Position numbers and translations under genes: made by a program
Origin: Gemmatimonadota bacterium
Lineage (GTDB): Bacteria; JAAXHH01
NCBI GenBank assembly: GCA_026706345.1
Contig: JAPOYX010000177.1
Span: 22,992 to 59,220 of the forward strand
Length of the DNA stretch: 36,229 nucleotides
Reading direction: 5' to 3'
The notes under the pieces: generated by a model
Database searches by the model: none
Seen by the model: only the letters and a program-made list of their open reading frames with translations
Told to the model about the DNA's origin: nothing
Shown: positions 16,889-28,839 of the stretch, in pieces
Position numbering within the stretch: the stretch's first letter is position 1
How the letters are laid out: every line of letters begins with the position of its first letter

Positions 16889-17974
16889 TCAGTGCCGGTG
16901 TTCCACTCCGTGATCGTGCGCGGTGTGGTAATGGTGGGCGAGCAGGTCCGCGCCGAAATCGTTGGTCGGGTTGCGCCAGACCGTGTGCACGTGGTTGGCG
17001 TCATTCTGGACGTTGTCGTATTCCACCAGGAACCGTCCGCCCTGCAGGCGGTAGTAGTGGGGTTGTCGGGCTTCCAGGCCGCCCGCCCAGGCCAGATGCA
17101 CGTCGCCCACGCCGTTCTTCCGTAACAGATCGGATTCGATTTCGGCAACGGCGTCGGGCATTCGATGAATGTACTCGCCGATGAGAGCCTCCAACATCTC
17201 CTGCTGTCCGTCGTTCATACCCGCCCCGGAGAGGCCGCGAGGCGTTTCCGTGTACCGCACCGCATCATAGGGCACGTCCGTCCGGGCCAGCCGGTCCGGT
17301 TTCTCCCTGTTCTCCTGGATGAAGCGCTGATTCACCGTGACGATGTCCCCCGGCGGAACCGGCGCGATAAGCGCGCCGTGCCGTTGTTCCTCGTCCAGGG
17401 CGCGCACCAGTTCCCGCGCCAGGTCTTCCACGTTGCCCAGGGGCCGAAGCGAACCGACGCCGTTGAGCGCGGCCGAGGCGGGGTTCGCCCCGAAGAAGAA
17501 GGGCGTGGGCGCCACGATCCGTCCCCCGGCGATAGTATAGTTGATGGAAACGTGGTGCCCCTCGAATTTCCACCCCCAGGGATCCCGGTCAGAGGGCGTG
17601 CCGAAAATGGACACGTAGTAGTCGGAAGGATCCCGCCAGTTGCCCGAAGACCAGCCTTCCCGGGCATCCAGCGTCGCTTCCAGGCCCATGATGGTCGTCG
17701 TGGTGGCATATCCCGTTCCGCTCACCCCCGAGGCCACGAGCTGAAGGGCCCGGCGCCGCTGTCCCCGGTCCATCTCCCCGAGCGGCAGGCCTTTTCTCGC
17801 CAGGGGCACGTAGTCCCAGAAGGTGCGTGCGGCATCGTCTTCGAAGGGGAACAGCGCTTTCGCACGCTGATCCAGGGCCAGGGCGGCCGTGAAATCGACG
17901 GCGGCCTCTCCCATCCGCTGAACCAGGCCCCGGATGTGCTCGCTGGTCAGTAAACCGTTCTGGTCGTCGCTCAT
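16889..17974 (-). CDS. DUF3500 family protein
   Basis: A 361-residue protein of the DUF3500 family (PF12006). Family-like segments are FWDYVPLARKGLPLGEMDRGQRR (about 52-74), WGWKFEGHHVSINYTI (about 132-147), PTPFFFGANPA and the C-terminal AWAGGLEARQPHYYRLQGGRFLVEYDN followed by an exceptionally His-rich tail (HHYHTAHDHGVEHRH). Function is unestablished; the conserved histidines (HH, HYH, HDH) suggest metal binding, which is inference. No signal peptide is present in this copy. GGAG eight bases before the ATG supports the start. It is the third gene of an operon after the PhyH dioxygenase and amidohydrolase genes, 47 bases downstream of the latter. It ends next to the AT-rich island. Confidence 0.9.
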   Translation of the reverse strand: MSDDQNGLLTSEHIRGLVQRMGEAAVDFTAALALDQRAKALFPFEDDAARTFWDYVPLARKGLPLGEMDRGQRRRALQLVASGVSGTGYATTTTIMGLEATLDAREGWSSGNWRDPSDYYVSIFGTPSDRDPWGWKFEGHHVSINYTIAGGRIVAPTPFFFGANPASAALNGVGSLRPLGNVEDLARELVRALDEEQRHGALIAPVPPGDIVTVNQRFIQENREKPDRLARTDVPYDAVRYTETPRGLSGAGMNDGQQEMLEALIGEYIHRMPDAVAEIESDLLRKNGVGDVHLAWAGGLEARQPHYYRLQGGRFLVEYDNVQNDANHVHTVWRNPTNDFGADLLAHHYHTAHDHGVEHRH

Positions 17975-18021
17975 TTTTTATTCTCCGGTAGGAACGTAGA
18001 CTGATTTGATGGTGACTTGAT

Positions 18022-18921
18022 TCATTTGAGATCCGGAAACCGCAGGAACCGCTTGGCGGTTCCGCCCATGATCGCCTCGTATTCATGGGGCTTGATGTCG
18101 GGCACGGTCTCTTTGATCAACCGTGCCAGCTTGTCGTAACCGGGCTCTTCGTAGATCCATGGGAAATCCGTGGCCCACATGAGCCGGTCGGCGCCGAACG
18201 TGCCCAGGAAGTTCTTATTCCAACCCGCCAGGTCGGGGTAGGGGTAGGGCTCTTTGCTGAAGGCGTAATGGCCCGACAGGTGCATCGTCACGTTCTCGTA
18301 GGTGCTCAGCCGGTGCGTGGTGTGAAATGCCGGGTTGTAGGGCACAATGTCGATCTGCGGCCGTCCCCACTGGTCTGTCCGGCCCTTGCCCAGGCCCGGA
18401 CAGATGCCCAGGTGGTTGATGACTACCCGCACTTGGGGGAAGGCGTCGACGAGCCAGGCGATCAGATGGGCGTCCGCCGCACGCACGTACAACCAGAGGA
18501 CGAGGTCCTTCTCCGCGGCGTGCCGCCAGATAGGGTAGGTCGTGAACGTGCGCACGTCCACCACTTCGAATGGGTCCGGGGGGCCGCCGACCAAACCGAG
18601 CCGGAAACCCACGATACCCGTTCCGTCCGTCAGCCGGTCCATGTGCTCCTCTGGCGCGCCATAGGCCGATTCGGGTATGAGTCCGATGCCGAGAAAACGA
18701 TCCGGATAGGTTCTGAGGCAGTGAAGCAGGTAGGCGTGCTGAGCCACGCTCGTGCCGCCGATCTGCACCAGCATGGCCTGGTCGATGTCGCTGGCGGCCA
18801 TGTAGGTCAACAGCTTCTCGACCGTCTCTTCCCGTTCCGGCGGCGTGTTGCCGCCCGCTTCTCTCGGAAACTCGCGGGTCACCTTCGCGAACACGTGACC
18901 GTGGGCATCGATACGAGGCAT
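18022..18921 (-). CDS. Amidohydrolase (amidohydrolase_2 / TIM-barrel metal hydrolase)
   Basis: A 299-residue metal-dependent hydrolase of the amidohydrolase_2 group (PF04909), which includes 2-pyrone-4,6-dicarboxylate lactonase, ACMS decarboxylase-like and dihydroxybenzoate decarboxylase-like enzymes. The first metal-binding motif is IDAHGHVF (His7, His9) on strand 1. VVINHLGICPG (about 164-174) supplies the middle-strand His, and WATDFPW near residue 255 supplies the terminal Asp. The reaction cannot be fixed; lactone opening or decarboxylation are the family possibilities. The start has AGGAAG at good spacing. It begins 12 bases after the PhyH stop and is followed by DUF3500, so the three genes are very probably one transcript and one pathway. 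Confidence 0.9.
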   Translation of the reverse strand: MPRIDAHGHVFAKVTREFPREAGGNTPPEREETVEKLLTYMAASDIDQAMLVQIGGTSVAQHAYLLHCLRTYPDRFLGIGLIPESAYGAPEEHMDRLTDGTGIVGFRLGLVGGPPDPFEVVDVRTFTTYPIWRHAAEKDLVLWLYVRAADAHLIAWLVDAFPQVRVVINHLGICPGLGKGRTDQWGRPQIDIVPYNPAFHTTHRLSTYENVTMHLSGHYAFSKEPYPYPDLAGWNKNFLGTFGADRLMWATDFPWIYEEPGYDKLARLIKETVPDIKPHEYEAIMGGTAKRFLRFPDLK

Positions 18922-18933
18922 GCGGCTTCCTGT

Positions 18934-19656
18934 CTATGACATCCCGAAAAGCCGAAGCCGGTCCGGCGTGTTCAGCGACGGGGCGATGTGGGCGTACCGT
19001 CCGGGGTTGATTTTTCCGGGCGTACGCTTTTCGTAGGTAAGGATGATCGACTTCCGGGGGGTTTCTGTGCGGTTTTTCATGGCCACGTGCCATCCGTAGG
19101 TATTGAACATGACGGCCGTTCCGGCCTTGCCTGGGAACCGCCTGTGGCCCGGCATGGCTTCGAGGCTCTTCACGCGGGGGTACGGCCCGGCGCCGGGCCG
19201 GTGGCTGCCCGGGACGTAGGCGAATTCTCCGCCGTCGCGCTCGACGTCGTTTACGTAGACCTGCACCTTGATGTGGAGGGGATGGTCCGGGGGGACGTCG
19301 GGATGCCATCCCGTGTAACCCATGGGCCAGAGCGGCGCTGTGCGGACCTGCTCGCCAATGAAGATCATGTCGTCATCGGTAAAGGCTTTGACGTACTCGA
19401 AGTAACGCGGCTGGTCAAGTATGTCGAGAAAGACGCCGTCTTTTTCCAGCACGTTCGGTATGTCGTAATAGGTCGCCGCTAGTTCACCCCGGGCGACGCC
19501 GACGAGCCACTCCTCCTTGCAGGCGGCGGCCCAGTGGTCGAAGGCCTTCTGGAGGCGGTCCAGCATCGCACCCCGGATCGCGTCCTCGAAGACGAGATAA
19601 CCCTCATCCTCCCACTGTTTCCATTCCCCCGGGGTGGGGCCGGATTCCATGGTCAT
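18934..19656 (-). CDS. Phytanoyl-CoA dioxygenase (PhyH) family protein, second copy
   Basis: A 240-residue Fe(II)/2-oxoglutarate-dependent oxygenase, shorter than the copy at 9754-10629 and clearly divergent from it. Iron ligands are His118 and Asp120 (GWHPD) and His190 (YGWHVAMKN); Arg201 (TPRKSIILTYEKR) is the likely 2-oxoglutarate ligand. VQVYVNDVERDGGEFAYVPG (131-150) is the characteristic core. The C-terminus ends soon after the fold. ATG 19656 is used, with ATG 19650 two codons later as an alternative; no strong ribosome site is seen. It heads the three-gene minus-strand operon with an amidohydrolase and DUF3500. It is divergently oriented to the RfbC-like gene, with a 195-base gap. The substrate is unknown. 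Confidence 0.9.
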   Translation of the reverse strand: MTMESGPTPGEWKQWEDEGYLVFEDAIRGAMLDRLQKAFDHWAAACKEEWLVGVARGELAATYYDIPNVLEKDGVFLDILDQPRYFEYVKAFTDDDMIFIGEQVRTAPLWPMGYTGWHPDVPPDHPLHIKVQVYVNDVERDGGEFAYVPGSHRPGAGPYPRVKSLEAMPGHRRFPGKAGTAVMFNTYGWHVAMKNRTETPRKSIILTYEKRTPGKINPGRYAHIAPSLNTPDRLRLFGMS

Positions 19657-21057: not shown

Positions 21058-21942
21058 CTAAAACCCGATTTCCCGCAAATACTCCAGCGTCCGCTTCGCG
21101 ATCGGGAAGGGCTTGTCGAAAGGCGCAGGATACATGTCCTGTTCCACGATGGCGTAACCATCGTAGTCGATCCGCTTCAGCAGCCCAAGCAAAGCTGGAA
21201 AATCGACTACGCCCGCCGAGGGTTCGCAGAACATGTCCATCGCCACCGCATCGGCAAAGGGGATGTTCTCAGCTTCCACCCTCCGCTGTTTCTCCGGATC
21301 CACGCTCTTGAGATGAAGGTAGGGGATCCGTCCACGGTGTTTATCGAGGAAGGCTACCGGATCTCCGTCGCGGTAGGCGTGGTGCCCGACGTCGAAGCAC
21401 AGCGACACCCGCCCGGGGTCGGTGTCCGCCAGGAAACGCTCGATCTGCTCCTCGTATTCGACGTGGGTCTCGGCATGGGGGTGGAACACGAGGTGGAGGC
21501 CGAAAGTGTCGCGGGCGAGATCGGCGACGCGGTGGGTCGTGTCGATTAGTTTCCGCCAGGTTTCGTCGTCCAGGGTCCTTGGCTCGATCAATTCGCCAGT
21601 GAACAGGTCGGAGTAGGTGCCGTCGATCAGGACAAGAAAGCCCGCGCCGGTGGCGGCCAGCAGTTCTCCCGCGCCCACCACCTGTTGCTCCAGTTCAGGC
21701 CATCGGTCCGGGTCCTCGAGGTTGCCCATGGCGAAGGCGCTGGTCACCTTCAGGTTCCGTGCAGCCAGTTCCCTTTGCAGCCTGTCTATGTCCGTGGGCA
21801 GATAGCCATAGGGTCCCAGTTCGATCCACTCGTAGCCGGCTTCGACCACCTCGTCCATGAACCGCTGCCAGGGGGTCTGCCTCGGATCGTCCGGGAACCA
21901 GACGCCCCACGAGTCCGGCGCGCTGCCGATGCGGATGTTCAT
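21058..21942 (-). CDS. iolE: IolE-like myo-inosose-2 dehydratase (TIM-barrel)
   Basis: A 294-residue xylose-isomerase-like TIM-barrel protein. The N-terminus GSAPDSWGVWFPDDP (7-20) and GYEWIELGPYGYLPTD (36-51) are the clear signature of inosose dehydratase-like enzymes, which dehydrate 2-keto-myo-inositol to 3D-(3,5/4)-trihydroxycyclohexane-1,2-dione. Likely metal ligands are in HPHAETHVE (154-162), FDVGHH (Asp184, His187), HLKS (His210) and IVEQDM near 266. The ribosome site is strong (GAGGAGGT before ATG 21942). It lies 54 bases downstream of iolD, the enzyme that uses its product, which supports the function independently. Other TIM-barrel epimerases look similar, but the signature and context favour IolE. 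It is the last gene of the minus-strand operon. Confidence 0.9.
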   Translation of the reverse strand: MNIRIGSAPDSWGVWFPDDPRQTPWQRFMDEVVEAGYEWIELGPYGYLPTDIDRLQRELAARNLKVTSAFAMGNLEDPDRWPELEQQVVGAGELLAATGAGFLVLIDGTYSDLFTGELIEPRTLDDETWRKLIDTTHRVADLARDTFGLHLVFHPHAETHVEYEEQIERFLADTDPGRVSLCFDVGHHAYRDGDPVAFLDKHRGRIPYLHLKSVDPEKQRRVEAENIPFADAVAMDMFCEPSAGVVDFPALLGLLKRIDYDGYAIVEQDMYPAPFDKPFPIAKRTLEYLREIGF

Positions 21943-21996: not shown

Positions 21997-23886
21997 TCAA
22001 TAATGAAACCGCTGGCTCGTGCGGCGTTCGGCTTCGTAGCCCTCGCGCAACTTCCGCGTCATGGGATCGTTGGTCGCCTCGGCGGACGCGATGTCCCACC
22101 ATACGTCCGAAGGCGGCAGGTAGCGGTGTTTCTCGGTCTCGCACACGATCACGCAGGCCCGCGTCTCCGAACGGGCTTCCCTGAGCGCCTGTCGCAACTC
22201 GTCCGGCGACTTCACGTGCCACGCCCTTGCGCCGAAACTCTCGGCATTGGCCGCGAAATCGATCTCCAGGTACTCCCCTTCGAGACGGTCCGAACCGGCG
22301 TCCCGTCCGCGGAACTCGTTGCCGAAAGACCGGCCCGCCCGGGCCATCTGCAGGGCGCGGATAATCTGGTAACCGTGGTTCTCAGAGATGACGACGGTCA
22401 CCTTGAGGCCCTCCTGCATGGCGGTCATGAGTTCGGTGGGATTCATCAGGTAGGTCCCGTCGCCGATGTAGACGTAGATCTCGTCGTGTTTCCCGGCCAT
22501 GCGGGTGCCGAGCCCGGCCGGCAGTTCCCATCCCATGCACGAATAACCGAATTCCAGGTAGCAGGCCGCGCCGCCCGTCACGTCCCAGAGCCGGTGCAGG
22601 TCGCCTGGCGGGCTGCCGGCGGCGGCGATGACGCAGTCGCCTTCCCGGGCTTCGCCGTTCAGGGTCTGGATGAGTCGGGCCTGGCTCATGGCCTCGCCGG
22701 GATGATCGACGTACACTTCTTCTTTCAGCGACTTGTGGTAGGCGTCCATGTGGCGCCGGACCGCTGTACGGTAGGATGAACTGGCCCGGATGCCAGCTTC
22801 CTTCGCGGCTGCGGCCAGGGCGGTCAGCGCTTCCCGGGCGTCGGCCGTGACCGGCAAAGCGCCCTGCTTGTAGGCGTCGTGTCCGGCCACGTTGATGCCG
22901 ATGAACCGGACGTCGGGATTCGTAAAGGCCGACTGCGAGCCCGTGGAGAAATCGGTCAGCCGCGTCCCCACGGCGATGACCAGGTCGGCTTCGGCAGCGA
23001 TTTTGGCGCCCGCCGGCGTGCCGGTCACGCCGAACCCGCCGATCGCCCAGTCCGAGGATTCACGCATGGCGCCCTTGCCGCCGAAAGTCTCTCCCACGGG
23101 GATGCCGCAGGTATCGGCGAAGGCCGCGAGGGCGTCCCAGGCTTCCGAATAGTGTACGCCGCCACCCGCGATGATCATCGGCCGCTTCGCCCCTTTGAGC
23201 ATCTCGATCGCCTCGGCGATGCGCGCCTTCGTCGGCGGCCTGCGCTCCACGCGCCAGACCCGTTTCTCGAAGAAGTGGGCCGGGTAGTCGTAGGCGTGGG
23301 CCTGCACGTCCTGGGGCAGCGAGATCGTCACCGCGCCCGTATCCGCCGGATCGGTAAGCACGCGCATGGCTTCCGGCAGGGCGGTCAGCAGTTGTTCGGG
23401 CCGGTTGACCCGGTCAAAGAAGCGGCTGACCGGGCGGAAGCAGTCGTTGACGCTGACCTCGGCGGACACCGGGTGCTCTAGTTCCTGCAGCACCGGGCCC
23501 TGGTACCGGGTGGCGTAGTAGTCGGACGGCAGCAGGAGCACGGGCAGGCGGTTGATCGTGGCCGTGGCCGCCCCGGACAGCATGTTGGTCGAACCCGGCC
23601 CGATGGATGCCGTGCACGCGATGGTGGCCATGCGGTGGTTCACCTTGGCGTAACCCGAGGCCGTGTGCACCATGGACTGCTCGTTGCAGGGCTGGTGGTA
23701 GGTCAGGTCCTGCCCGTACTCGAAAAGGGCCTGGCCCAGCCCGGCCACGTTCCCATGGCCGAATATGCCGAATATGGCGGGGATGAAACGACGCTCCACG
23801 CCGTCGCGCTCGCTGTACTGAACGGACAGGAACCTGACCACCGCCTGCGCCGTGGTCAGGCGGACCTTATCGTGGGGGTATGCCAT
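21997..23886 (-). CDS. iolD: IolD: trihydroxycyclohexane-1,2-dione acylhydrolase
   Basis: A 629-residue thiamine-diphosphate enzyme that hydrolyses the ring of 3D-(3,5/4)-trihydroxycyclohexane-1,2-dione to 5-deoxy-glucuronate. It has the three-domain architecture of acetolactate-synthase-like enzymes. The ThDP-activating Glu69 is in CNEQSMVHTASGYAK, the middle domain contains IIAGGGVHYSEAW, and the ThDP/Mg motif begins at GDGTYLMNP (about 470) and continues to VISENHGYQ. Length agrees with known IolD (about 640). AAGGAG lies close before the ATG. It is between the IolG-like and IolE-like genes on one transcript. Acetolactate synthase is the main alternative, but gene neighbours and the long N-terminal RLTTAQAVVRFLSVQY, typical of IolD, argue against it. 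Confidence 0.95.
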   Translation of the reverse strand: MAYPHDKVRLTTAQAVVRFLSVQYSERDGVERRFIPAIFGIFGHGNVAGLGQALFEYGQDLTYHQPCNEQSMVHTASGYAKVNHRMATIACTASIGPGSTNMLSGAATATINRLPVLLLPSDYYATRYQGPVLQELEHPVSAEVSVNDCFRPVSRFFDRVNRPEQLLTALPEAMRVLTDPADTGAVTISLPQDVQAHAYDYPAHFFEKRVWRVERRPPTKARIAEAIEMLKGAKRPMIIAGGGVHYSEAWDALAAFADTCGIPVGETFGGKGAMRESSDWAIGGFGVTGTPAGAKIAAEADLVIAVGTRLTDFSTGSQSAFTNPDVRFIGINVAGHDAYKQGALPVTADAREALTALAAAAKEAGIRASSSYRTAVRRHMDAYHKSLKEEVYVDHPGEAMSQARLIQTLNGEAREGDCVIAAAGSPPGDLHRLWDVTGGAACYLEFGYSCMGWELPAGLGTRMAGKHDEIYVYIGDGTYLMNPTELMTAMQEGLKVTVVISENHGYQIIRALQMARAGRSFGNEFRGRDAGSDRLEGEYLEIDFAANAESFGARAWHVKSPDELRQALREARSETRACVIVCETEKHRYLPPSDVWWDIASAEATNDPMTRKLREGYEAERRTSQRFHY

Positions 23887-23978: not shown

Positions 23979-25142
23979 TCAGCCGATATCCTGCACCGTT
24001 TCCCATCGGTCGGACGACCAGGAGCGCTCCACCGAGGCCAGCACCTCAGCCACGGCCCGCGCTTCATTGAAGCCGGGTTCGCCCTGCCTGCCCGCCGCGA
24101 TGGACTGCAGGAAGTGAAAGGTCTCGATCGCCTTGAGATCGTCGTATCCGAGTCCCACGGCCGGCCCGGGGTTGAAGTGGACGTGCCCCGGATAGGCCGG
24201 ACCGCTCTGCAGGGTGACGAACCCGTCGTGCGGTCCGTCGACCGCGTACAACTGCAATTCGTTCATGCGTTCGAAGTCCCACCGGATTGCGCCCTTGGTG
24301 CCGTGAATCTCGAAGGCCATCTGGCATTTCGTCCCCTGGATCACGCGGTCGACTTCGAAGGAACCCCGGGCGCCGTTCTCGAACTCCACCAGCGCCCCGG
24401 CGTAGTCTTCATTCGTCACGGATTCGCGTTGCCCGCCAGTCCCAACGGAAAAGTGCGTGCCCTCGCCGGCCGGCGCGACGGGCCGGTCTTCGATGATCAG
24501 CGCCCGCTGCCCGACTACGCGCCTGATGGGTCCCGCGAGCATGTGGGCCATGTCGACGACGTGGGACATGAGGTCGCCCAGGGCGCCGCTTCCGGCATCC
24601 TCTCTTCGAAAGCGCCACGAGAGCACGCCGTCGGGGTGACTCGCGTAGCCCGCTAAAAAGCGGCCGCGATAGTGAGTGATGTCGCCCAGCGCGCCATCGG
24701 CGACAAGCGTTCGCGTATGCTGCACCAGCGGCGCCCAGCGGTAGTTGTAACCCACCCAGGTCAGCACGCCGGCTTCGGTGGCCGTCCGGGCGATTTCGGC
24801 CGTTTCCGCTGGGGAGCGACCCACAGGTTTCTCACAGAAGATATGCTTGCCTGCCGCTGCGGCGGCACGGACCATGTCCAGGTGGAGATGATTCGGCGCG
24901 GTGATGTTGACCACGTACACATCGGGGTCGTCCATGACTTCGCGCCAGTCCGTCGTGGTCCTGGTGAATCCCAGCATGTTCCGGGCCTGCTCGCACCGCG
25001 CGGTCACGTCGTCCGCGCAGACGACCAGTTCCGGTACCAGCCCGCTTTCAGGAAAGCGCTGCCGGACCTGGTGGTAGGCCCGGCCGTGGACCATGCCCAT
25101 CCAGCCCATACCGATGATGCCGATGCCGATTTTCGGGGCCAT
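23979..25142 (-). CDS. IolG-like Gfo/Idh/MocA dehydrogenase
   Basis: A 387-residue NAD(P)-dependent dehydrogenase. The Rossmann motif GMGWMG is at 11-16. The catalytic lysine is Lys105 in the canonical CEKPVG, and DLMSHVVDMAHML (about 190-202) supplies the family's conserved His. The C-terminal domain includes EIHGTKGAIRWDFERMNELQLY, usual for sugar or cyclitol dehydrogenases. Next to iolD and iolE, the most economical role is oxidation of myo-inositol or scyllo-inositol to the inosose, the first step of the pathway. Sequence alone does not fix the substrate, and the second Gfo/Idh gene upstream (27516-28601) could instead fill this role. GGAG lies about eight bases before the ATG. It is 115 bases downstream of the transporter gene, with degenerate repeats in between. 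Confidence 0.9.
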   Translation of the reverse strand: MAPKIGIGIIGMGWMGMVHGRAYHQVRQRFPESGLVPELVVCADDVTARCEQARNMLGFTRTTTDWREVMDDPDVYVVNITAPNHLHLDMVRAAAAAGKHIFCEKPVGRSPAETAEIARTATEAGVLTWVGYNYRWAPLVQHTRTLVADGALGDITHYRGRFLAGYASHPDGVLSWRFRREDAGSGALGDLMSHVVDMAHMLAGPIRRVVGQRALIIEDRPVAPAGEGTHFSVGTGGQRESVTNEDYAGALVEFENGARGSFEVDRVIQGTKCQMAFEIHGTKGAIRWDFERMNELQLYAVDGPHDGFVTLQSGPAYPGHVHFNPGPAVGLGYDDLKAIETFHFLQSIAAGRQGEPGFNEARAVAEVLASVERSWSSDRWETVQDIG

Positions 25143-25171: not shown

Positions 25172-25265
25172 GATCGCCGGGGTCGGCCGCAAAATTGCCA
25201 GGTCGGTCGAAGATCGCCAGGCCAGCCGCATAGTCGCCTGGCCGGCCGAATGCCGGGTCAGCCCA
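25172..25265. repeat. Degenerate tandem repeats of about 20 bp
   Basis: Between the transporter and the IolG-like gene, four to five imperfect units follow a pattern near aTCGCCaGGtCGGCCGaa, starting at about 25172, 25192, 25211 and 25231, with a partial fifth at 25251. Units differ at several positions. The last copy runs across the end of the transporter gene. They could form GC-rich secondary structure in the mRNA. Confidence 0.5.
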
Positions 25266-26490
25266 GGGCGTCGATCAATTGAGTGACGCCGAGATACAGA
25301 AAGAGGACCAGTGCTAGGGCGAGGAGCACGTTCAGCAACCAGCCCGTCTTCAGGTTTCCGACCCACTCCCTGCGCGAGTTCATATACAGCAGGGTGCCGG
25401 CCAGGAACGGCATGAAGAAAGCGCCGACCACCGTATAGACGATGACGACGGATACCGGCCGGTCGAACAGCAGCAGGGCCATGGTCGGAAAGGTCAGGAA
25501 CAACAGGAATCCGCGGTAGTACCGTGAATCGGTTCGGACCATGGCTTCGCGGGCCTCGCTGGACGCCTTTTTGAACAGTGCCATGAAGTCGGCGAACAGG
25601 TAGGGGATGCCCTGCCAGACCCCCAGTACGGATGTGATGACCGCGGCCCAGAATCCCAGGTAGAGAGACCACCGGCCGAAGGGTCCCAGCGCCGCTTCCA
25701 GCCGGTCGGCCATGCCCAGGACGATATCGATGCCCACCGCTTCGGGACGGATCTGCGCGCCGAGGATCATGACGGCTATACCGAAGAATCCCGTCAGGAG
25801 ATAGGCGCCGCCGAGGTCGATGCGTATGCCCTTGAGCCACTCGCTTCCGTTTCGGCCGGCCTCCCTGATCCAGTACCCGTAGCACATGACCGACAGGCTG
25901 CCGCCCACGCCGCCCAGGACGCTCAGTACGGCGACCACCGAACCCGACGGCGCGCTCGGCAGGGCGATGCCGCGCAGGATGTCGCCGAGGTCGGGACGGA
26001 GGGCCCAGGCGCTGATCAGGAAACTTACGAACATCAGGCCGATGAGCACCTTCATGACGGTCAGGAAGAACCCGAATCGGCCCGCCCAGACCATGACGCA
26101 CGCGGCCAGGGCGTGGATGATCCCCCACTGCGCAACCGAGAGCCCCGGGAAAACCGTATGGCCGGCAATGCCGGAGGCCGACAGCAGCCCGCCGCCGACC
26201 AGGAAGGACCAGATGAGCAGGTAGAGCAGGAAGAAGTACTGAACGGGCCTGCCGAGGCGCTCCACCCAGCCTTCCAGGAGCGTGGTGCCCGTCGCAAGCT
26301 GCCAGCGTCCGACCCCTTCGTTCAGGGCGAACTTGAGCACAGCGCCCCAGACGATGGCCCACAGCAGCACCGTGCCGAACTTCGCGCCGGCGTTGGTAGC
26401 CGAAATCATGTCTCCGGCGCCGACCCCCGTGGCCGCGACGGCGATCCCCGGCCCCATCAGGGCGATCATCTGGAGGAAGTTCAGTTTCAA
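25258..26490 (-). CDS. Nramp-fold transporter lacking canonical metal-site motifs
   Basis: A 410-residue inner-membrane protein with about eleven hydrophobic segments, of the Nramp/MntH superfamily (LeuT fold). TM1 reads GPGIAVAATGVGAGDMISATNAGAKFG-like (residues 13-39, split by the unwound region). In true Nramp metal transporters this region holds D-P-G-N, whose Asp and Asn bind the metal; here it is G-A-G-D (24-27). The TM6 M-P-H motif is also missing; the matching stretch reads SLSVMCYGYWIREAG. It is therefore probably not a standard Mn/Fe importer. It lies inside the inositol operon, so uptake of an organic solute or cation is possible but unproven. The start is TTG 26490 with GGAAA upstream; the next in-frame ATG is seven codons in. 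Confidence 0.85.
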   Translation of the reverse strand: MKLNFLQMIALMGPGIAVAATGVGAGDMISATNAGAKFGTVLLWAIVWGAVLKFALNEGVGRWQLATGTTLLEGWVERLGRPVQYFFLLYLLIWSFLVGGGLLSASGIAGHTVFPGLSVAQWGIIHALAACVMVWAGRFGFFLTVMKVLIGLMFVSFLISAWALRPDLGDILRGIALPSAPSGSVVAVLSVLGGVGGSLSVMCYGYWIREAGRNGSEWLKGIRIDLGGAYLLTGFFGIAVMILGAQIRPEAVGIDIVLGMADRLEAALGPFGRWSLYLGFWAAVITSVLGVWQGIPYLFADFMALFKKASSEAREAMVRTDSRYYRGFLLFLTFPTMALLLFDRPVSVVIVYTVVGAFFMPFLAGTLLYMNSRREWVGNLKTGWLLNVLLALALVLFLYLGVTQLIDALG

Positions 26491-26586: not shown

Positions 26587-27519
26587 TCAGATCTCGTCCC
26601 GCAACATTTCGTCCAGGTACCGCTTGCCGGACAGGATCGCGTTGAAGGGATCGGCGCCCGTGGCCAGCTCGATGCTGATGTACCCGTCGAATCCGCCGTC
26701 CCGCATGATCCGAAGCGCCCGCCGATAGTCGATCATGCCCTCGCCCAGGGGCGCGTTGATGTGCTGGGCGCGGTCTTCTTCCTGGAAGTAGATCCGCTGG
26801 ATGTTCTTGACGTGCCAGAAGTTGGTGTGGGGCGCGAGCATGCGGCACACGTCGTCCCAGCCGCCCTCGGGCGTCGCGTAGGCGAAGTAGAAGTTGCCGA
26901 GGTCCGGATTCGCCTTGATCAGGGGGTGATCGACGAGATCGATGAGCCGCAGCATGCCCTCCGGAGTGTCCACGATGCTGTTCTGGTGGAGTTCCAGCGT
27001 CAGTTCGGTGCCCTTCGACTCGGCCTCCCGGGCCAGTTTCTTCAGCACGCCAGCGGCTTCCTCGTAGTCTTCGTCCCGCGCCCGCAAGCTGCTGCCCACC
27101 GGGTCGGACTGTCCCCGGAGATCCTGCTCTCGCACGCCCACTTCCCAGGGTTGCGGCGAGATGGACATGTTTACGAGTGGTGCGCCCGCGAGTTGGGCTG
27201 CTTTCACCGCCCGGGACAGCAACCCCCGGTTCGCCGTCCGGACCTCCTCGGGCGCCGGCCAGGTGATGATCTTACGCAGTACGGTCAGTCCGCCGATTTC
27301 GAGTCCGTGGCCGCGCGCCTCCTCGCCCAGGTCGACCAGCGCTTCGTCCGGCGCGTCGTAGAAATTGAACCAGGTCTCGCCCAGGTCGATCCCATCGAAT
27401 CCGTGGCGGGCGAGCCAGTCCCACACGGGTTTACGTTCCTCGGCCAGGGGATAGCCTCTTTCCGCGGCTTCGGGTGAACGATAACCACTCAGCGTGAGGG
27501 TACAGAAGACGATTTTCAT
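26587..27519 (-). CDS. Sugar phosphate isomerase/epimerase (xylose-isomerase-like TIM barrel)
   Basis: A 310-residue AP-endonuclease-2 / xylose-isomerase-like TIM-barrel protein (PF01261). Features include FDGIDLGETWFNFYDAPDEAL (40-60), LTLELHQNSIVDTPEGMLRLID (about 179-200, with a metal-ligand Glu), IKANPDLGNFYFA, WHVKN and a late GYISIELATGADP where the last Glu ligand lies. Such enzymes epimerise or isomerise keto-sugars, or dehydrate inososes. ATG 27519 overlaps the upstream gene's stop in an ATGA junction (27516-27519), so the two are translationally coupled. An upstream in-frame start at 27561 would lie inside that gene and is rejected. In the inositol operon it may be an inosose or keto-sugar isomerase (IolI-like), but this is inference. 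Confidence 0.88.
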   Translation of the reverse strand: MKIVFCTLTLSGYRSPEAAERGYPLAEERKPVWDWLARHGFDGIDLGETWFNFYDAPDEALVDLGEEARGHGLEIGGLTVLRKIITWPAPEEVRTANRGLLSRAVKAAQLAGAPLVNMSISPQPWEVGVREQDLRGQSDPVGSSLRARDEDYEEAAGVLKKLAREAESKGTELTLELHQNSIVDTPEGMLRLIDLVDHPLIKANPDLGNFYFAYATPEGGWDDVCRMLAPHTNFWHVKNIQRIYFQEEDRAQHINAPLGEGMIDYRRALRIMRDGGFDGYISIELATGADPFNAILSGKRYLDEMLRDEI

Positions 27520-28601
27520 GGAGTGTCTTCCCCCAGGTACGCGTTGACGATGTCTCGGCAAAGGGCATGATCATGCCGCGCACCGTATCCGTCGGTGATG
27601 GGTGGTTTCCCGTTCACGACGCAATCGTGAAAATGGATCAACTCCAGCTTGAAGGAATTTTGCTTGTTGACGACGATTTCCTTCTTCCAGGGCTGTTCGC
27701 CGTCCATGCCCTGCACGGTGACCGGCGACGGCAGTCCCCGGTCGAACCCCGTGGGAAACCGAATGCCTACCCGCCATCCCGCGCCGAAGACTTCCAGGGT
27801 CTCCCGGAAATCGTGCAGTTCGGGCAGGCTGGTCCAGGTCGCCGAGCACCGGGCGTCGTTTTCATAGGCCAAGACGGTCGTCACGCTCGATCCTCCGCGC
27901 CACACTTCGGCGCTAACCACGCGTTCCGGCGGACCGAACATCCCCCGCAGGCTGCTGATGTCGTGGATCATGCTGCCGGAGAGCGAGAAGAATATCCTTC
28001 GCACGGCCTCCGGGGCGTCGCCGATGGCATCCCGGATGGCCTGTTCGCGCTGGGCGGCCGAGCGTTCGATCACCTCGCCCGGGATATCGTCGAAAGCGTA
28101 AAGCGTGAACTCCCGGAGGTGCCGGTCGTTGCCGCAATGGAGGTGGTTGGCCTGGATAAAGCGGATATCGGGCATGGCAAGCACTTCGTTCCGCGCGAAT
28201 TGGTATCCCGGATCGTGTTGTTTCATGTATCCCACCATCAGCGTCTTGCCCGAAGCCTCGGCGGCCCCGATGATCTGGTCCGCTTCTCCGACCGAGAAGC
28301 ACATGGGCTTCTCGATGAAGACGTGCTTGCCCGAATTCAACGAGGCGACGGCCGTTTCTGTCTTGGGGTCGGCGAAACACAGCAGAACGGCGTCCAGATC
28401 GAGGTCCAAGAGGTCCTGGTAGCGGGTGACGCGGGCTTGGGGCGGTACGTGGTACATCTCGCCGATGAAGTCGACCAGTTTTGCGGATGCGTCGCATAGA
28501 CCGGCCAGTTCGTAGCGGTCACGGAGCTCGGCGATATGGGGCAGGTGTTGGATCTGGGCGATCGCACCGCAGCCGATCACGCCGATCCTGATGCGGTCCA
28601 T
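27516..28601 (-). CDS. Gfo/Idh/MocA oxidoreductase
   Basis: A 361-residue NAD(P)-dependent dehydrogenase: Rossmann motif GVIGCGAIAQIQHLP (7-21) and the catalytic Lys98 in FIEKPMCFS. MIHDISSLRGMFG (around 222-234) supplies the conserved His/Asp region. The sequence is only distantly like the IolG-like gene at 23979-25142, so it probably has a different substrate. The start is ATG 28601, with AAAGG about seven bases upstream; an extension to 28658 lacks a ribosome site. It is the first gene of the minus-strand operon and its 3' end overlaps the epimerase gene by four bases, so the pair is translated together. A cyclitol or keto-sugar dehydrogenase is likely. The upstream promoter region is just 80 bases from the tRNA-Arg gene. 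Confidence 0.88.
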   Translation of the reverse strand: MDRIRIGVIGCGAIAQIQHLPHIAELRDRYELAGLCDASAKLVDFIGEMYHVPPQARVTRYQDLLDLDLDAVLLCFADPKTETAVASLNSGKHVFIEKPMCFSVGEADQIIGAAEASGKTLMVGYMKQHDPGYQFARNEVLAMPDIRFIQANHLHCGNDRHLREFTLYAFDDIPGEVIERSAAQREQAIRDAIGDAPEAVRRIFFSLSGSMIHDISSLRGMFGPPERVVSAEVWRGGSSVTTVLAYENDARCSATWTSLPELHDFRETLEVFGAGWRVGIRFPTGFDRGLPSPVTVQGMDGEQPWKKEIVVNKQNSFKLELIHFHDCVVNGKPPITDGYGARHDHALCRDIVNAYLGEDTP

Positions 28602-28682
28602 GAGAATGCCTTTCCGGCAATCGATGATCTTGAATCGATGCCCTGGAATCGATGCCACTGATGGGGAAGTCGATAAAGAGAA

Positions 28683-28756
28683 TACGCCCGGAGGGATTCG
28701 AACCCCCGACCTACTGATCCGAAGTCAGTTGCTCTATCCAGCTGAGCTACGGACGC
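28683..28756 (-). tRNA. tRNA-Arg (TCG anticodon)
   Basis: A 74-base cloverleaf reads on the minus strand from G1 at 28756. The acceptor stem GCGTCCG pairs with CGGGCGT, with two G-U pairs. The D-arm is GCTC..GAGC, the anticodon stem ACTGA/TCAGT encloses the loop CTTCGGA, giving anticodon TCG (reads CGA and related Arg codons). The T-arm GGGGG-TTCGAAT-CCCTC is standard. The discriminator is A. No CCA is encoded; the next genomic bases read TTC. Confidence 0.95.
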
Positions 28757-28839
28757 ACGGGGAACCCACTGAGGCCAGCATCCGATATACGCATTGAACG
28801 GATTGATGTCAACGAAATCAGGCGGCCTCAAGCCCGATG

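Follow-up and report, generated by a model that had tools for sequence, protein, structure and literature searches.

A Nramp-related transporter without the canonical metal-binding motifs in an inositol-type operon of a sponge-associated bacterium

The gene cluster and its transporter

Here, we describe a Nramp-related transporter gene and the presumed operon around it in a sponge-associated bacterium. The window, meaning the whole stretch of 36,229 nucleotides that was analysed, holds a cluster of minus-strand genes bordered upstream by tRNA-Arg(TCG) (28682..28757, minus strand; ARAGORN and Rfam). The first gene of the presumed operon encodes dehydrogenase 2 of the Gfo/Idh/MocA type (27516..28601; PF01408; start taken at ATG 28601), and its end overlaps by 4 bases the ATG start, taken at 27519, of a gene for a sugar isomerase/epimerase-like TIM barrel (26587..27519; PF01261). 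These are followed by the transporter (25258..26490), Gfo/Idh/MocA dehydrogenase 1 (23979..25142), IolD, the trihydroxycyclohexanedione acylhydrolase, a TPP enzyme (21997..23886), and an IolE-like, inosose dehydratase-like TIM barrel (21058..21942), all on the minus strand. An ORF on the opposite strand lies downstream of the IolE-like gene. Also downstream, at 16889-19656 of the window, genes for a PhyH dioxygenase, an amidohydrolase and a DUF3500 protein follow one another on the same strand, an arrangement that the genus keeps together with the operon. By Pfam and NCBIfam profiles, the transporter is the sole one within the cluster.

The transporter gene encodes 410 aa from a TTG start at 26490 (in one ortholog the start at this position is ATG), with about 11 hydrophobic segments by hydropathy. 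It belongs to the Nramp superfamily, matching Pfam PF01566 (121.2 bits, E=6.9e-35; cut-off 29.8) and NCBIfam NF037982 (156 bits; cut-off 50), and can be aligned with canonical Nramp/MntH across about 280 columns (phmmer against PDB sequences; hhalign), with an hhalign probability of 96.9% for E. coli MntH. An earlier note on this DNA had placed a Nramp-fold transporter at 25258-26490, and these matches, all to the minus strand, bear it out. The protein falls far below the cut-offs of the MntH model NF001923 (32.9 vs 430 bits) and of the nramp model TIGR01197 for the Mn/Fe Nramp family (26 vs 272.5 bits). By homology, it would be a LeuT-fold secondary carrier. An AlphaFold model had a pLDDT of 34.5, a low confidence that is due to its input, six near-identical, window-derived sequences only. 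Matches to antibody chains in the PDB (E about 0.03) were taken as chance. Our search of genome contigs returned five near-identical loci only, all of the same group and from MAGs named 'Candidatus Latescibacterota', of which two are filed under Gemmatimonadetes, and no relative was found in the viral contigs searched.

Motifs and phylogenetic placement

At the place of the D-P-G-N motif of TM1, the transporter reads G24-A25-G26-D27 (26410..26421, minus strand; alignments and 15 phylum orthologs). These residues fall exactly over DPGN of human NRAMP1, ScaDMT and a clade-B Nramp and over DAGG of the Mg transporter EleNRMT (phmmer against PDB sequences), and hhalign with E. coli MntH gives the same TM1 register. 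In TM6, the stretch G193-W207 (GGVGGSLSVMCYGYW; 25870..25914, minus strand) has no M-P-H: VLGGVGGSL of the transporter aligns with VLGATIMPH of E. coli MntH, so that GSL stands at the MPH place, with Met and His both gone. The metal ligands D, N, M and H thus correspond to G24, D27, G197 and L199, and the protein is without the DPGN and MPH that mark a canonical Nramp (SLC11). D27 is the single carboxylate left in the TM1 motif, at position 4 instead of position 1, and the TM3 acidic residue of canonical Nramp is not conserved. Both motif replacements had been claimed in the earlier note and hold, in TM1 residue for residue with the acid D27 remaining. Its word "lost", however, probably has the direction wrong, since Nramp-related proteins are paraphyletic in a published phylogeny in which the metal motif is derived (PMC12873925).

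Within the GAGD-type group, GGVGG and Y.YW of TM6 are conserved (alignment). The gene was found in all 16 phylum genomes compared, and GAGD is present in each of the 15 orthologs with readable TM1; the ortholog of the remaining genome (G013) is cut at a contig end. The window genome itself encodes three PF01566 proteins, with motifs GAGD, GSGE and GVSH. None of the PF01566 proteins read from the 16 genomes, a set without a few weak matches, was a canonical Nramp with DPGN. APC amino-acid carriers such as AdiC have a GSG carboxylate-binding motif, and its likeness to GAG is an analogy only; an equivalence of the two was rejected, as hhalign gave 0.3% probability and no meaningful alignment.

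A tree was built from 38 proteins, a small set drawn from plasmids and one phylum, in which the plasmid relatives are a biased sample and which omits the weak PF01566 matches L056 and L058 (below cut-off at 19-20 bits). The transporter lies inside a 26-protein clade (support 100/99) with TM1 motifs GAGD, GAAD, GTAD, GAGE, GSGE, GASH or GTSH, apart from MntH/BfraNramp, EleNRMT, haloarchaeal GPGT proteins and a PxpT-like protein of L. plantarum. Inside this clade it groups with proteins of Bacillaceae, Haematobacter and Ketogulonicigenium and with one Rhodococcus protein (99/99; about 31-41% identity), while EleNRMT groups with a DPSG protein. Deeper placements are uncertain because several rows are long branches.

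These data bear on whether the protein could still import divalent cations through an altered, NRMT-like site and so feed Mn or Mg to metal-dependent enzymes of the operon. We regard this as unlikely. The TM1 motif does keep the D27 carboxylate, and searches of the genome that holds the window gave neither a canonical Nramp nor a Mn/Zn binding protein of the ZnuA type. There is precedent as well: EleNRMT moves Mg and Mn (PMC8806188), and MumT and YcsG/MntG, Nramp-family proteins of nitrogen operons and distant relatives of the transporter, are reported Mn importers that raise cellular Mn (PMC5050338, PMC10448178). Against this, the transporter stands outside the NRMT clade and has no D..G-T..A site, the genome encodes MgtE, two FeoB and ZIP proteins elsewhere, and the genes beside clade members are mostly catabolic (see below). 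Neither a Fur box nor an MntR box was matched in the window, with consensus sequences of the E. coli and Bacillus type that may not be those of the host.

Operon content and gene neighbours

IolD scores above the curated cut-off of its model (TIGR04377; 813 bits, cut-off 715). The IolE-like protein reaches 169 bits with TIGR04379 (cut-off 290), with IolE (3cny; 1.3e-26) as its best PDB match. Dehydrogenase 1 stays below the cut-off of NF052479 (316 vs 650 bits), and its nearest solved relatives are levoglucosan and scyllo-inositol/L-glucose dehydrogenases (6a3f, 9e-78; 5ya8, 8e-75), levoglucosan dehydrogenase giving the best score and scyllo-inositol dehydrogenase one almost equal. No IolB (PF04962) was matched in any of the 16 phylum genomes, control genomes being positive, and no sugar kinase of these genomes exceeded the IolC cut-off (TIGR04382); inositol catabolism is therefore incomplete by orthology. 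With IolD and an IolE-like protein present, IolB not found and no IolC above cut-off, the cluster is an inositol-type operon, not a standard Iol pathway. The "inositol operon" of the earlier note is thus sound as regards IolD, the IolE-like protein and a dehydrogenase of the scyllo-inositol/levoglucosan type, but not as regards IolB and IolC. No pxp genes occur among the annotated operon neighbours.

The gene order of the operon is kept in the genera examined. Across three families of the phylum (loci compared), dehydrogenase 2 lies upstream of the transporter, and dehydrogenase 1 is its downstream neighbour. IolD was found only in the 14 genomes of one family (f1), in all 14 on the contig of the transporter, and the IolE-like protein in the same 14. 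Both are absent from the two outermost genomes (families f2 and f3; 83-85% complete), which keep the transporter beside the dehydrogenases; in one of these two genomes (G015), the contig continues for 0.7 kb past dehydrogenase 1, and this stretch has no match to IolD.

This distribution speaks against a cyclitol as the substrate, and raises the alternative of an organic, non-inositol substrate belonging to an older core of dehydrogenases 1 and 2 and the TIM-barrel isomerase, such as an anhydrosugar, a sugar or a hydroxy acid, with IolD and the IolE-like protein having joined or been lost separately. The missing IolB and IolC, the best score of dehydrogenase 1 with levoglucosan dehydrogenase, and the acids handled by most clade neighbours point the same way. 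Nevertheless, IolD passes its curated cut-off and in family f1 always shares a contig with the transporter, the match of dehydrogenase 1 to scyllo-inositol dehydrogenase is almost as good, and the f2 and f3 genomes are just 83-85% complete, so we consider such a substrate a minority reading, if a serious one.

Clear organic catabolism lies beside members of the 26-protein clade at eight loci. The Mesobacillus relative neighbours CoA-transferase A/B and thiolase genes with an IclR regulator; a Rhodococcus relative has an amidase gene overlapping by one base and an Lrp-type regulator; and Rhodococcus and Mycobacterium relatives occur with CoA-transferase, FAD-linked oxidase and an FCD regulator. 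Others stand with a four-carbon acid sugar kinase, a PdxA-like protein and an aldolase (Streptomyces), with UxaA and FadR/GntR (Rubrobacter), or with mannonate dehydratase, an aldolase-family protein and IclR (Halocatena). In G001, a genome of the window's own family, genes for an acyl-CoA ligase, a GTSH protein, oxalyl-CoA decarboxylase (1004 bits; cut-off 739) and formyl-CoA transferase (629 bits; cut-off 504) all run in one direction (G001:C60, L116:1614-8312), making the GTSH protein a candidate oxalate carrier; Oxc was found in no other phylum genome, so this oxalate cluster is a single instance. The same genome holds a GISH-type Nramp-related protein gene followed by an amidohydrolase gene (G001:C11, L118:6934-9351). 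In haloarchaea, outside the clade, the genes of GPGT proteins are followed by hydantoinase/oxoprolinase genes. The GSGE paralog of the window genome is convergent with the gene of a 1247-aa hydantoinase/oxoprolinase A+B fusion, caprolactamase-like (L115:6589-11767, G000:C178).

Two loci are metal-tinged. An MgtC/SapB gene lies beside the Ketogulonicigenium relative, and in Roseomonas (L100:1-4795) a GSGE-type member comes after genes for an NRPS, an esterase-like protein and a dihydroxybenzoate dehydrogenase, a siderophore-like setting that runs against an organic nutrient. The remaining clade loci have weak or uninformative neighbours. The earlier note had named GAGD-type members lying mainly beside metal-regulated genes, or measured Mn/Fe transport, as what would tell against its substrate proposal; two clade loci are metal-tinged, and in the window no Fur box of the E. 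coli type or MntR box of the Bacillus type was matched. The phylogeny with operon partners that it had proposed as a check supports an organic solute, with a clade apart from MntH and NRMT and informative loci that are mostly catabolic.

Probable substrate and proposed mechanism

The metal-binding residues are missing and the operon encodes enzymes of a sugar- or inositol-degrading kind, and the protein therefore probably imports an organic nutrient and not a metal. Our preferred reading, held with moderate confidence, is a LeuT-fold Nramp-related protein that takes up the organic compound on which the operon acts, plausibly a cyclitol such as an inositol or a closely related polyhydroxy compound. 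That it moves an organic solute is likely and is favoured over metal; that the solute is specifically a cyclitol is a more tentative proposal. The earlier note had suggested another cation or an organic solute such as a cyclitol or hydroxyacid. Motif phylogeny and operon partners support the organic solute and leave the cyclitol plausible, with the cation kept as a rival on account of the Mn-type relatives.

As such an importer, the transporter would bring in the operon's substrate by alternating access, the direction and the substrate class being those suggested by the operon. Oxidation by the dehydrogenases would come next, followed in family f1 by dehydration and ring opening through the IolE-like protein and IolD. 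The central site would be formed by the GAG turn of TM1, GGVGG and Y.YW of TM6 and the single acid D27. Its glycine-rich TM1/TM6 core may make room for an organic molecule, and D27, the sole charged motif residue left, would hold either a coupling ion or the hydroxyl groups of the substrate. Judged from the residues, such a site would suit an uncharged polyol or hydroxy acid more than it would a bare divalent ion.

Genes for making myo-inositol have been reported in sponge Latescibacterota (PMC12993501), so that cyclitols are part of their metabolism. This makes efflux or balancing of an osmolyte conceivable, that is, export or equilibration of a compatible solute or of a toxic pathway intermediate in place of nutrient import. 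Given that the operon make-up is catabolic, that characterised members of the Nramp superfamily are known as importers (PMC8806188), and that growth on an external substrate depends on PxpT (PMC13274462), we consider export highly improbable.

Comparison with known systems

The equivalog model NF037982 names all 15 GAGD/GSGE-type members tested "divalent metal transporter", none of which has the metal motif, and misassignment of the substrate class may thus be common in the annotation of Nramp-related proteins. Proteins of this kind that have no metal motif form a large group, most of it uncharacterised (PMC12873925), and the few Nramp-related cases that are characterised disagree, MumT and MntG being linked to Mn and PxpT to 5-oxoproline. 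The operon links (inositol-type, oxalate, four-carbon acid sugars, altronate/mannonate, hydantoin/oxoproline) point to concrete substrates for such proteins. They also touch on the origin of a metal transporter within a superfamily that carries organic solutes. It is conceivable, though we advance it with some reserve, that the GxG[D/E]/GxSH part of Nramp is a large family of organic importers mass-annotated as "divalent metal transporter", and that canonical metal transport derives from an ancestrally organic-solute fold; if true, the substrates would include cyclitols, oxalate, sugar acids and keto acids.

Canonical Nramp/MntH (SLC11) belongs to the same superfamily, but the transporter is without its DPGN, MPH and conserved TM3 acid. 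NRMT (EleNRMT; PMC8806188) likewise matches PF01566 and has an altered, non-canonical site, but keeps the TM1 Asp (DAGG) and T..A in TM6, whereas the transporter has GAGD, shows neither the D..G of TM1 nor the T..A/T of TM6, and is separate from EleNRMT in the tree. PxpT/YcsG (MntG; PMC13274462, PMC10448178) resembles the transporter in being Nramp-related, in standing in a catabolic operon and, as read from the L. plantarum relative, in a TM1 motif that starts with G; it differs in its operon and in a disputed substrate, 5-oxoproline or Mn. PxpT of C. glutamicum, a more distant relative, is required for growth on 5-oxoproline, its authors leaving metal transport possible (PMC13274462). The transporter neither groups with PxpT nor shows pxpABC linkage. 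A PxpT-like relative in L. plantarum, beside PxpA and with TM1 motif GPGF, lies outside the supported clade on a long branch and, unlike the transporter, has no acid at motif position 4. A Salmonella paper that names Nramp solely as a mouse genotype was set aside.

The transporter matches the Nramp-related G-motif groups (PMC12873925), which, like the transporter, belong to PF01566, are without DPGN/MPH and the proton-pathway residues, and have G first in the TM1 motif. All Nramp-related groups except those with EleNRMT and MntG are called uncharacterised there, and for the G-motif groups the source text gives no operon or substrate, unlike the transporter with its operon here. The general idea of an organic-solute Nramp relative is already published, with PxpT as precedent, and the transporter adds a variant to a branch of the Nramp superfamily that is known though for the most part uncharacterised.
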